A stretch of DNA of 64,000 bases from assembly GCF_001411555.2 (NCBI RefSeq), contig NC_049905.1:8461053-8525052 (forward strand). The letters are read 5' to 3'. Shown here piece after piece: positions 16,071 through 52,438 of this stretch. Below the pieces are notes generated by a model, which saw nothing but the letters and a program-made list of their open reading frames with translations, was not told where the DNA came from and made no database searches. Numbering within the stretch: position 1 is the stretch's first letter; every line of letters starts with the position of its first letter. The position numbers and the translations under genes were made by a program. This DNA is from Juglans regia (Eukaryota > Streptophyta > Magnoliopsida > Fagales > Juglandaceae).

Positions 16071-16517
16071 TCAAGAGCTAGTGAATTTGGTGACGGCCTT
16101 GGTCCCTTCAGAGACGGCGTGCTTAGCCAACTCACCAGGCAGCACGAGGCGCACTGCGGTCTGGATCTCCCGGGAGGTGATCGTAGGCTTCTTGTTGTAT
16201 CTGGCCAGCCGCGAAGCCTCCTGGGCGAGCTTCTCGAAGATGTCGTTAATGAAACTGTTCATGATCCCCATAGCCTTGCTTGAGATCCCAATGTCGGGAT
16301 GGACCTGCTTGAGCACCTTGAATATGTAGATCTTATACGTCTCAACGCTCTTCTTGGTCCGCTTCTTCTTTTTATCACCGGCAACGGCTCCGCCTTCCTT
16401 CGGGAGCTTCTTTCCGGCTTTTGGCTTCTTCTCGGCCGGAGCCTTCTCCGCAACCGTGGATTTCTTCTCCTCCGCTGGCTTCTTCTCCGCTGGCTTCTTG
16501 TCGGCTTTAGGGGCCAT
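16071..16517 (-). CDS. Histone H2B, copy 1
   Basis: A single intronless frame of 148 aa. The N-terminal tail (about residues 1-55) is rich in [13 protein letters not shown] and KAGKK motifs, as in plant H2B. The histone fold starts at [16 protein letters not shown] and runs through [22 protein letters not shown], with the C-terminal helix ending AVTKFTSS. The lysine in AVTK corresponds to the conserved C-terminal ubiquitination site of plant H2B. The product forms the H2A-H2B dimer of the nucleosome. It differs from the second copy at 51,989-52,438 mainly in the tail and at QEASR versus QESSR. A lack of introns and S-phase type promoter motifs are usual for this family. Confidence 0.96.
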
Positions 16518-31191: not shown

Positions 31192-31500
31192 TTAAACTTG
31201 ACACATTATCTTGTGAAATGCTTTAGGATTTATATCAACTAGTCTTCTTTGCATCCCTTGCTCTTTACCTTTCATATTAGACCCATTATCATAACATTGT
31301 TCTCGAATATCATTAATATCAAGTTCAAAACTTTTTATTACATCTAATAATTCATTGCGAAAACATTTTCCACTAGCATCATCTACTTTAATAAATTCAA
31401 GAAAATATTCTTCTATTTTTATTGGACTTGTTGAAATATTAACACATTTTTTAGTACGAGAGACATTTGTTTCTAATGATTTACATTGGGATACAATCAA
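31192..31500 (-). pseudogene. hAT transposase fragment (ZMYM1-like type)
   Basis: A 102-aa minus-strand frame contains EYFLEFIKVDDASGKC, DINDIREQCYDNGSNMKGK and GMQRRLVDINPKAFHK. This order of an EFIxVDD block and a YDNGxNMxGK block is that of hAT-family transposases annotated as zinc finger MYM-type 1-like. The first catalytic region and the C-terminal dimerisation domain are absent, so it is a remnant. Sequence beyond both ends is AT-rich and without frame. Confidence 0.75.
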
Positions 31501-31779
31501 ATATAATTGAAAATTATTTGCTTTCTTGATTTACTATCTATGACCTCGATACAGAATTAGCGAATTAAAATTAAATAGTTTGATTCATTTAGTTAGATGT
31601 CATTATTTTTATTGTCAATAAAAATAATTTATAGCCCTCATTTAAAAAATAATCTTTATCATTTTAAAACTTACGGTTCTTTATTTAGTTCTCATTTTCA
31701 AGCAAACCTTGATATAAATTAGGAAAAGAATGTCAAGGCATGGAATTTTTGTTTTTTTTTTTAAATATTGGATTCATAG

Positions 31780-31955
31780 TTGATCTCAATTCATCTCATC
31801 ATATCTAATTATTACAACTTTTTCAAATTCTCACACAAAATATAATAAATAATTCAATTTTTTCTAATTTTAAAATAATAATAATATTAAAAATAATATT
31901 TTATTCAACTTTTAACTTTCATCTCATCTCAACACACTATCCAAACTTCACCTTA
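31780..31955. mobile_element. Tourist-like MITE
   Basis: Reverse-orientation copy, from ctcaattcatctcatcatat to catctcaacacactatccaa, with the family's AT-rich interior. Confidence 0.6.
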
Positions 31956-32074
31956 TATTCTAAATTTAAGATTTTTTTTTTTTTACAAAGAAATCAGTGT
32001 GTTAGCACATCACTTTTACTGGGACCTATTATAACTTTAAAAAAATCAAAACACTAATCATTGAGTAACGATAT

Positions 32075-32224
32075 ATACAATCTTAAGGTATGCAAATCCT
32101 GTGTACTCTATTTGAAAATTGGTGGGATCCAACATTAAAAAATAATAATTTTTTTTATGTGAGTTCTAGAGTTGTACACTTTTTTCAAAAGAAGTATACG
32201 AAACTTGCACGCCATAAGATTACA
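32075..32224. mobile_element. 150-bp foldback MITE
   Basis: The arms pair imperfectly over about 33 bp (tacaatcttaaggtatgcaa against tgtaatcttatggcgtgcaa). The same general family appears at 63,036-63,190. Confidence 0.6.
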
Positions 32225-32261
32225 AATATCAATTCTCATTCTAAATAGCTTTTATCTAAGG

Positions 32262-32474
32262 CATTATTTGTTTTCGCAGATAAGATGAGATAAGTTGATA
32301 TTAAAGTTAAAAGTTGAATAAAATATTGTTAGAATATATTTTTTTAATGTTATTTTTGTTTTGAGATTTGAAAAAGTTGAATTGTTTATTTTATTTTGTG
32401 TGAAAATTTGAAAAAATTGTAATGATTAGATGAGATGAATTGAATTGAGAGAAATTGTGAAAACAAACGGGTTT
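32262..32474. mobile_element. Tourist-like MITE upstream of H2A
   Basis: Complete-looking copy with ends ttgttttcgcagataag and gtgaaaacaaacggg. It sits about 300 bp upstream of the H2A start. Confidence 0.65.
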
Positions 32475-32564: not shown

Positions 32565-32770
32565 AGCCGTCGATAAGGTCTTAAATCCAACAGTCACGAC
32601 GCTCTGACTTTCTGATCCACGCACCCACATGGTTTGCACTTGTCACCCCACGGCCTCTATAAAATTGTCTGCCAACTAAACTCAGCCCATTCCTTTCATT
32701 GATTCCAGTTCCATTTTCCGGTCAAAGTGCTCCACTGGTTGGACTTGTGGCGTTTCGATCTTTTAGGTTT
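32565..32770 (+). promoter_or_regulatory. H2A promoter
   Basis: GATCCACG at 32614-32621 is one mismatch from the reverse histone octamer GATCCGCG. GCCGTCGAT at about 32,568 resembles the CCGTC-type element also seen upstream of H2B copy 1. A TATA box (ctataaaat) lies at about 32,656-32,664, about 110 bp before the ATG. Confidence 0.5.
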
Positions 32771-32985
32771 ATGATGGAGAAGAAGGGCGCTGAAGGAAGG
32801 AGAGGCGGTGGAGGGCCCAAGAAAAAGCCTGTTTTCTGTTCCGTCAATGTCGGTTTGCAGTTTCCAGTTGGGAGGAAAGGTCAGTACCTGAAGAAAGGGA
32901 GGTACTCGCAGCGTGTTGGGACCGGTGCTCCAGTTTATATGGCAGTTGTGCTCGAGTACCTAGCTGCCAAAGTATGCCACATTTG

Positions 32986-33037
<52 letters not shown>

Positions 33038-33727
33038 GTGGCTATAAATTTTTATTTAATTTTTTTTTAAATTTCTTATCGTCAACATAGTACTATTTCC
33101 ATGTCGCTCAAATCTATCATTTTGCTTGATCATATGCGGTTAGTGTTTAGCTCGGTAGTTGCTATTCTTGTTTTGCCATGAATGCATTTCTTAGCGCAAT
33201 TCAGTATTCATTTCAAAATTTATCTAAGAAAAACCGGGTAAAGGGTTGAGAGGTCAGATGTTCTTTTGTTTTGATGTATTTTCTTAGCAATCAAACAGTG
33301 GGCTCCATCATTCCTGAATTTCAGAAGACTACAAAGTGTAGAGATACTGCCATTTATGTTCTTTTTTATGTGTTTGTTATTAGTTTCTTAGGGATTCCTT
33401 GTATCTTCTGTTTTCTCTCTCTGGGTTTTGAAGTAATTGAGTGTAAATGTGCGTGTGAAGGTTCTAGAGTTGGCCGAAAATGCAGCTCGCGATAACAAGA
33501 AGAATAGGATAATCCCATGGCATGTTCTGTCGACAGTGAGGAACAACGAAGAGCTAGGGAAGTTGCTTTCTGGTGTTACCATTGCTCATGGCGGTGCTCT
33601 TCCGAACATCAACCCGATTCTATTGCCTAAGAAGACTGACAAGGCTTCGAAAGAGCCCAAATCTCCGGCTAAGGCCACCAAATCCCCGAGAAGGCTTAGC
33701 TGCTTTGTCATTGATTGCCAATTTTAA
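32771..33727 (+). CDS. Divergent histone H2A.W-like variant
   Basis: Two exons (32771-32971 and 33461-33727) give 155 aa in phase. The start could also be the next codon, since it begins ATGATG. The tail has [12 protein letters not shown]. The histone fold is clear ([56 protein letters not shown]) and two SPxK-type motifs (KSPAK, KSPRR) end the protein, as in H2A.W. The intron sits at the usual place after AA(E). Unusual: Lys67 replaces acidic-patch Glu (canonical E61), Asn96 replaces Asp (canonical D90), VGRKGQ replaces VGRIGR, and WHVLST replaces RHVLLA. The C-terminus reads [15 protein letters not shown], not KSPKKA, consistent with a one-base loss. It could be a specialised variant or an early pseudogene; the frame is open throughout. 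A (CT)n tract is in the intron at about 32,987-33,034. Confidence 0.8.
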
Positions 33728-35096
33728 CGCCGCTTTTTCCATCTGTATGTAGCATTCTGATTTTAGGATCGTTCATTTTTTTCTTATTTTTGGATTTGTG
33801 TTGTTGCTTTTGTAGGTGTAAAATGATGTATTTGAAATATCTCTTGTCATATGGAAATTAATGGATGAAACCTCTCGTTTCAATTTATAATTTGTGTTTT
33901 GCATCAATTTATAAATTTATTTTTTTTTCTTTTTAAATATAATGTCATACATTCTTTGAAATGATAACAATATATATGCTAATGGGGCTGAAAGTTAAAA
34001 GTGATGAGCATATTTTCCTTTGTAAGGCAATCACTGCTTCCATGTGCTTTATTATTTCTTTTGTCCCCTTTTTCACAGGATACAAATTCTTTCTTTCCTT
34101 TTATCTTTTTGGCAATCTTGTACTTTACTTGCATATGGGTTTATGTATAAAATCCCCCAAAAAAAAAAACCTTTTCAAATCTTGTTTGAATTTTTATGAT
34201 ATTGTTCTATTTGGATAATGAAATTGTTTTATTTTATCTCATCATTATAATTTTTTCAAATTTTTATAGAAAATTTAATAAAAATTTAAATTTTGTAAAT
34301 TTTAAAATAATATTAATATTAATAAATAATATTTTATTTAATTTTTAATTTTCATCTAAAACTATCTCATCTCATTTCACTATCTATATATTTATAATGC
34401 AACTTTAGTGCTTTCTTGGACGTGGAAGGGTGGTAATTTCTTTTGATATCCAACAGGGTTGAAATTGATCCTGGGTTCAGTCATCAATGTGAGGATATCA
34501 AATTGGGCTATTGGGAGTCGAGAGGACTACATTGAGCGATTTTTCCATTCGAAACTTGAGAACCCCAAATAAATTTCCAATCTTTTTACAGGGAAAGAAC
34601 TTCAAATTTTCCTAACAATGCAAGTAAGGAGATGTTTGAAGAATGAGATGAGATAGAAATTTTATGAATAATAGTAAGATGATTTATGAATAGTAGTGAT
34701 ATAGTTTAAGTTAAATATTTATTGGATTATGAGAAATGAGAGAAAAAAAAATTGAACAAAATATTATAAAGTTGAAGAGAAACGCTAGGGGTTGAATATG
34801 GTGTCGAGTGGAGAAAAAAATAGAACCAACTACAGGTAAGGGTCTCTCATACTCCTCCCCCTTCACTCCCTCTCTCTCTCTCTCTCTCTTACGTTAGAAT
34901 GAGATGCTTCGCTTCAATGTTACAAGAGAATCGAGATGGAAAATGACATGAAAGAAGAGGAAGAGGTAGAGGAAGAGAAATGGATCAAATCACTAAAAAT
35001 GGGAGTCTTTAGTTTTGAATTCTAAGTAAACATGCACAAACTTGTTCATTGACAACAATCCCTCCGATTGATCACGATTGGTAAGTTTCTACCTCC

Positions 35097-51988: not shown

Positions 51989-52438
51989 CTAAGAGCTAGT
52001 AAACTTGGTGACCGCCTTGGTCCCCTCAGAAACGGCGTGCTTGGCGAGTTCACCAGGCAGCACGAGACGCACCGCCGTCTGGATCTCCCGAGAGGTGATG
52101 GTGGGCTTCTTGTTGTACCTCGCAAGCCGAGAAGACTCTTGGGCGAGCTTCTCAAAGATATCATTAATGAAGCTGTTCATGATCCCCATGGCCTTGCTGG
52201 AGATCCCAATATCAGGGTGGACCTGTTTTAGCACCTTAAAGATGTAGATCTTGTAGGTCTCAACACTCTTCTTGGTCCGCTTCTTCTTCTTGTCCGAGGC
52301 GCCGGCTCCTCCTTCCTTCGGGAGCTTCTTTCCGGCCTTGGGCTTCTTCTCGGCTGGAGCCTTCTCCGCAACCGTCGATTTCTTCTCCTCGGCGGGCTTC
52401 TTCTCGGCGGGTTTCTTCTCTGCTGCTTTGGGAGCCAT
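51989..52438 (-). CDS. Histone H2B, copy 2
   Basis: Intronless, 149 aa. It is almost identical to copy 1 from [21 protein letters not shown] onward. The differences are in the tail ([25 protein letters not shown]) and at QESSR. The C-terminal AVTKFTSS keeps the ubiquitination lysine. It is a core nucleosome protein, nuclear, replication-linked by its promoter motifs. Its downstream flank belongs to the segment duplicated with the yippee-like genes. Near-identity of the fold beside different UTRs suggests purifying selection or gene conversion. Confidence 0.96.

Follow-up and report, generated by a model that had tools for sequence, protein, structure and literature searches.

The question raised by this locus is whether a histone H2A gene of the walnut Juglans regia, the product of which has lost two acidic residues from the nucleosome acidic patch, encodes a specialised variant or is a duplicate that has largely escaped constraint. 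The sequence analysed (the window) is 64,000 nucleotides long and corresponds to C5:8461053-8525052 of the 571-Mb assembly; contig numbers (C5, C14 and so on) are assumed to equal walnut chromosome numbers. No study of walnut H2A was found among the literature matches listed. An earlier note on this DNA had reported an open frame with good splice sites, and this was borne out by translation of the joined exons, which gives a two-exon H2A frame at 32774-33727 that is open throughout, with a GT...AG intron at the paralogue position (Table 1). Another in-frame ATG, at 32771, immediately precedes the 32774 start. An identical protein is given by the NCBI model P0004 ("probable histone H2A.4 [Juglans regia]", 154 aa), which begins at the second Met. 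Matches above cut-off to the Pfam core histone and Histone_H2A_C families were obtained, the latter over its full length. Third-position GC of the gene (0.532) is the lowest of nine H2A genes, the others lying at 0.57-0.63. Its CpG observed/expected ratio (0.68) is close to that of the C14 copy (0.69) and gives no hint of a general decay of CpG sites. Elsewhere in the window, an ORF at 31192-31500 on the minus strand has a weak, below cut-off match to DUF4371 and is perhaps a transposase remnant. A further H2A.W-like copy on C5 (L052, C5:7634300-7635700) apparently lacks the start of exon 2 and is probably a truncated pseudogene.

Table 1. Features at and around the C5 H2A gene, in window coordinates.
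Feature	Position	Strand	Basis or remark
Two open H2B genes flanking the H2A gene	16146-16496, 52064-52408	-	C14 counterparts near 9.605 and 9.679 Mb
Imperfect inverted repeat, MITE-like; 126-nt arms, 83% complementary	31768..32466	.	Ends ~300 bp 5' of the ATG
Block CGCTCCCCATTGGT, inverted CCAAT, identical in C14	32504..32517	+	Alignment with C14
Block CACAGCCGTCGATAAGG, identical in C14	32562..32578	+	Alignment with C14
TATA-like box	32658..32663	+	Short motif
Exon 1, H2A.W-class gene	32774..32971	+	Translation; start matches C14 homoeologue and P0004
Codon AAA for Lys67 (E61K at H2A position 61), closing exon 1	32969..32971	+	Alignment to solved H2A chains
Intron, GT...AG, contains (CT)n run	32972..33460	+	Same place as in 8 other exon-joined H2A paralogues
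Exon 2, closing with TAA 33725-33727	33461..33727	+	Translation
Codon AAC, Asn96 = H2A position 90 (D90N)	33545..33547	+	Alignment to solved H2A chains
Frameshifted C-terminus replacing KSPKKA-stop	33689..33727	+	By-eye comparison with C14 and pecan

The best matches of the protein among solved structures were the Arabidopsis chains "Probable histone H2A.7" and "HTA6", both of which we take to be H2A.W. The features given for this class in PMC12459048 are a lysine/glycine-rich N-terminal tail, RY[A/S][Q/K] in loop L1 and a C-terminal KSPKK motif. The walnut protein has the first of these and carries the second as GRYSQR; KSPKK is absent, KSPAK and KSPRR being present and followed by a frameshifted tail. 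In descent, the gene has a collinear partner on C14 with 83% identity over 142 shared codons. Since it lacks KSPKK, it is called H2A.W-class on grounds of descent, short of a full H2A.W. The altered tail results from a one-base deletion near 33689, which has left the old stop TAG out of frame at 33697-33699, whereas the KSPKKA end is intact in C14 and in the pecan protein P0095. When compared to plant H2A.W (Arabidopsis H2A.7 and HTA6, and C14), the walnut copy thus shares the N-terminal tail, the RYSQ loop, the docking domain and KSP motifs but differs in E61K, D90N, 13 private replacements and the loss of the terminal KSPKKA. A model from Hevea brasiliensis (P0113), which has extra sequence at the exon junction, also ends in KSPRRL... 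in place of the usual KSPKKA, a similar C-terminal shift.

When the protein is aligned to H2A chains of solved structure, the two from Arabidopsis among them, Lys67 stands opposite E61 and Asn96 opposite D90 in conventional H2A numbering. Equivalents of E56, E64, E91 and E92 are retained, so that two of the six patch residues are changed and four kept, exactly as the earlier note had read them. Its claim that ordinary plant H2As keep the patch likewise held in the nine walnut paralogues read (C14 and eight others, a subset of the H2A loci of the genome), all of which have E61 and RNDEEL. An assembly error behind K61 and N90 is unlikely, because the pecan protein carries both. Each change is a G-to-A transition, and its site is probably highly mutable. 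Read on the C14 codons (GCC GAG), E61K is a CpG transition; for D90N this holds only if the codon before it was AAC, which is the case in the C5 gene and on C4, C11 and C8, C14 having AAT. Two of the four stem replacements fall in the six patch residues (P 0.010-0.031 depending on the CpG factor, uncorrected, for a surface picked after the fact). This concentration, together with the CpG mutability, is suggestive and no more.

Laboratory mutants and the short H2As of animals are familiar cases of a weakened acidic patch, and the mammalian short variants have a shortened C-terminal tail. The likeness to animal H2A.B proposed in the earlier note holds for the change of charge but not for the rest of the molecule: a shortened docking domain or C-terminus is absent, with a full-length Histone_H2A_C match and a long tail. 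As described in PMC7226823, the mammalian short H2As (H2A.B, H2A.L) have no patch and an altered docking domain, and arrays with a neutralised patch mimic those of H2A.B; the walnut patch is reduced, but four of its six residues are kept, as are both the docking domain and the tail, and no kinship is claimed.

The closest paralogue of the gene is at C14:9625288-9626143, with 81% and 78% DNA identity over two matched stretches and 67% over the aligned intron. The order and orientation H2B-H2A-H2B are identical on C5 and C14, and Jr5 and Jr14 are given as a homoeologous chromosome pair in Table 5 of PMC4574618. Given this collinearity and the published pairing, the two genes are most simply explained as duplicates from the juglandoid whole-genome duplication, with the C5 gene as the chromosome-5 homoeologue from the event common to walnuts and hickories. 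A 63-bp fragment 87% identical to C5 exon 2 (L046, C14:9634599-9634661) lies ~8.5 kb from the C14 homoeologue.

Upstream of the two genes, a 14-base and a 17-base block match exactly inside an alignment of 58% identity. The sequence CCGTCGAT, within the second block, is also found upstream of two of the four H2B genes examined. Between the C5 upstream region and those of 11 other histone genes, the 9-mers in common were AT-rich words only, so the case for histone-type regulation rests on the two blocks shared with C14 plus short motifs. Against the C14 upstream sequence used for comparison, the inverted repeat gave no match longer than 32 nt, and local silencing through it is a guess. AT-rich copies related to this repeat occur near 34235-34351.

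Selection on the gene was estimated using a codon model of the GY94 type with branch-specific omega. With five H2A.W genes, omega on the walnut C5 branch (omega_W) was 0.12 compared to 0.027 elsewhere (p 0.0005 against background, p 0.0001 against 1). Dropping the two most distant genes gave 0.12 and 0.019 (p 0.0005 against background, p 0.0009 against 1). In these runs 2dlnL crosses 3.84 at an omega_W between 0.2 and 0.3. The pairwise C5-C14 values were dN 0.062-0.072 and dS 0.60-0.76, compared to dN 0.004-0.026, dS 0.43-1.01 and ratios of 0.005-0.034 in nine control comparisons from the same genome (six among four H2B genes, C2-C9 H2A, and, between C11 and C8, one SQEF-ended (H2A.X-type) and one H2A.W pair). 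Of the ten pairs that the five H2A.W genes form, five were saturated, with no usable dS by either method, and were kept out of the controls; the C4-C11 pair (dS 5.7) was excluded as too saturated and the C14-C4 pair (0.022-0.027) as older. The histone dS of 0.60-0.76 exceeds the published genome-wide 0.36-0.48 for the same duplication.

These values rule out positive selection (omega above 1) as well as neutrality along the entire branch. The earlier note had counted a dN/dS near 1 as the sign of a pseudogene, and the whole-branch value is significantly below it. A dead pseudogene was also rejected given a fold without inactivating lesion, an open frame with its intron and an omega of 0.12 (p<0.001 against 1), although function may have been lost recently. 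An omega of 0.12 could reflect strong constraint mixed with weak or no constraint, or steady mild constraint.

Three protein searches of 5.8 billion proteins were conducted, with ~7,980 scored in each, and the best 120 from each gave 244 distinct homologues. Among those listed, K61 occurs with N90 in two, the walnut model P0004 and pecan P0095 (I3760_14G073700), which suggests that E61K and D90N probably predate the walnut-pecan split. The pecan protein, a prediction compared here at the protein level, agrees with the C5 gene against C14 at positions 61, 90, 114, 120, 124 and 131 but has 14 private replacements and an intact KSPKKA end. At positions 114 and 120 the shared residues may be ancestral, since they also occur in Alnus, and the other two, 124 and 131, belong to the variable tail and differ among other H2A.W proteins; orthology of P0095 to the C5 gene is therefore judged mainly from 61 and 90 plus the overall pattern, and is probable. 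The earlier note would have counted it against the idea of a variant if orthologues had intact patches only, and this probable orthologue carries both changes; if it is the orthologue, they either precede the split or arose in parallel. As for K61 as a recurrent plant variant, the sole further case among the 244 is P0212 (Camellia). Extra sequence stands at its exon junction, and the same is true of the models read that have V, Q and L at this position (P0107, P0113, P0190); the position 61 count also includes two G cases and a second V model (P0169), taken as listed. At position 90, the count includes two odd readings, likewise taken as listed, and P0060 and P0225 had no motif match.

There are 13 private replacements in walnut and 14 in pecan, excluding the walnut frameshifted tail and walnut position 98, whose ancestral state is unclear. 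These were compared to 17 other H2A.W-class proteins (C14, C4, Alnus P0091 and 14 listed proteins picked by hand) and to a neutral expectation from Monte Carlo simulation, in which transitions and CpG sites were given their bias and a proxy for the ancestor was the starting sequence. In walnut, nine of the 13 fall at positions invariant in the 17, among them R81W, G67E and R32Q, against a neutral mean of 8.2. Pecan has five of 14 at such positions (including D72N, P80L and R42H) against 8.8 (P 0.04), indicating some avoidance, and the pooled figure is 14 of 27 against 16.9 (P 0.17). Changes in the fold are likewise near neutral values (walnut 8 against 8.6, pecan 9 against 9.3, pooled 17 of 27 against 18.0). 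The private replacements thus nearly ignore site conservation, less clearly so in pecan. Both frames are open, but this says little about constraint since 0.87 stops are expected beside 27 neutral replacements and zero has P 0.42. With the split at 23.7 My (PMC9239856) and a rate of about 1.5e-9 (PMC9899254), 9.9 neutral replacements are expected per lineage, or 19.7 at double the rate, and on these published values the number of replacements fits neutrality. Our own alternative of a 60 My split gives 25-50 per lineage; a doubled rate or older split thus predicts 20-50, more than the 13-14 observed, and the older split leaves room for constraint.

On the sequence evidence, the C5 gene probably arose by whole-genome duplication, stayed constrained for long and shed most of that constraint at about the time of the walnut-pecan split or earlier. 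For much of the history of this homoeologue from the walnut-hickory duplication, purifying selection would have been strong, and E61K and D90N would be among the first changes fixed once most of that selection was lost. Afterwards, replacements would have accumulated in both genera with little regard to conservation, and the walnut C-terminal motif would have been frameshifted. Any protein made would probably dimerise with H2B weakly or aberrantly, present a less acidic patch and lack a dedicated role, the function being carried by the C14 copy and other H2A.W genes. The low third-position GC agrees with this reading; an omega_W below 1, which by itself suits a constraint that is relaxed yet real, the two retained upstream blocks, the partial avoidance of invariant sites in pecan, the high histone dS and the unremarkable CpG ratio weigh against it. 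A specialised variant, as envisaged in the earlier note, would here take the form of a fast-evolving Juglandaceae H2A.W with less negative charge in the patch, weaker docking of the H4 tail and of patch-binding factors, and chromatin that is less compact locally, pollen or embryo being possible sites. The patch loss on which that idea was built is real and probably precedes the split; the pairing of K61 with N90, confined among the 244 listed to the walnut and pecan proteins, agrees with it, as do the stem replacements in a patch chosen post hoc, an omega_W below 1, the two upstream blocks kept and the mammalian precedent (PMC7226823). However, the 27 private replacements are spread nearly neutrally and the walnut C-terminus is frameshifted, so that decay fits at least as well as a chromatin-loosening variant. 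Both patch changes are, moreover, transitions at probably highly mutable sites, and as several patch residues are essential in yeast (PMC6895269), losing them may simply mean lost function. We regard such a specialised variant as unlikely. A narrower form, in which a fast-evolving walnut-hickory H2A.W derivative with two of six patch residues replaced before the split would give nucleosomes a low-acidity face, possibly in reproductive tissue, is likewise doubtful.

The open frame, the intron position, the upstream blocks and the omega of 0.12 would also suit an ordinary working H2A.W copy kept for dosage under relaxed constraint, with the patch changes tolerated in a minority of nucleosomes and at least nine paralogues with E61 and D90 to cover the essential roles. 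Such a copy sits poorly with the nine walnut replacements at sites where the 17 comparison proteins never vary, with the frameshifted tail and with control histone pairs at 0.005-0.034, and we consider it improbable. If instead E61K and D90N had arisen in parallel in decaying walnut and pecan copies, they would tell nothing of a shared variant. Mutability would help here, each change having ~7-14x the mean replacement weight if CpG transitions are 4-10x faster and the ancestral codons are as inferred (2.2x without the CpG effect), but two sites in two lineages need four events, and the agreement at 124 and 131 points to common ancestry, although both vary in H2A.W. Parallel origin is thus very improbable.

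If the protein is made, walnut would have a flowering-plant histone with a weakened acidic patch, and the function of the patch would be testable in a tree lineage. If the gene is decaying, which is the likelier case, it would illustrate how a histone homoeologue can lose constraint late, and would warn that substitutions at well-known residues may be side effects of mutable codons.
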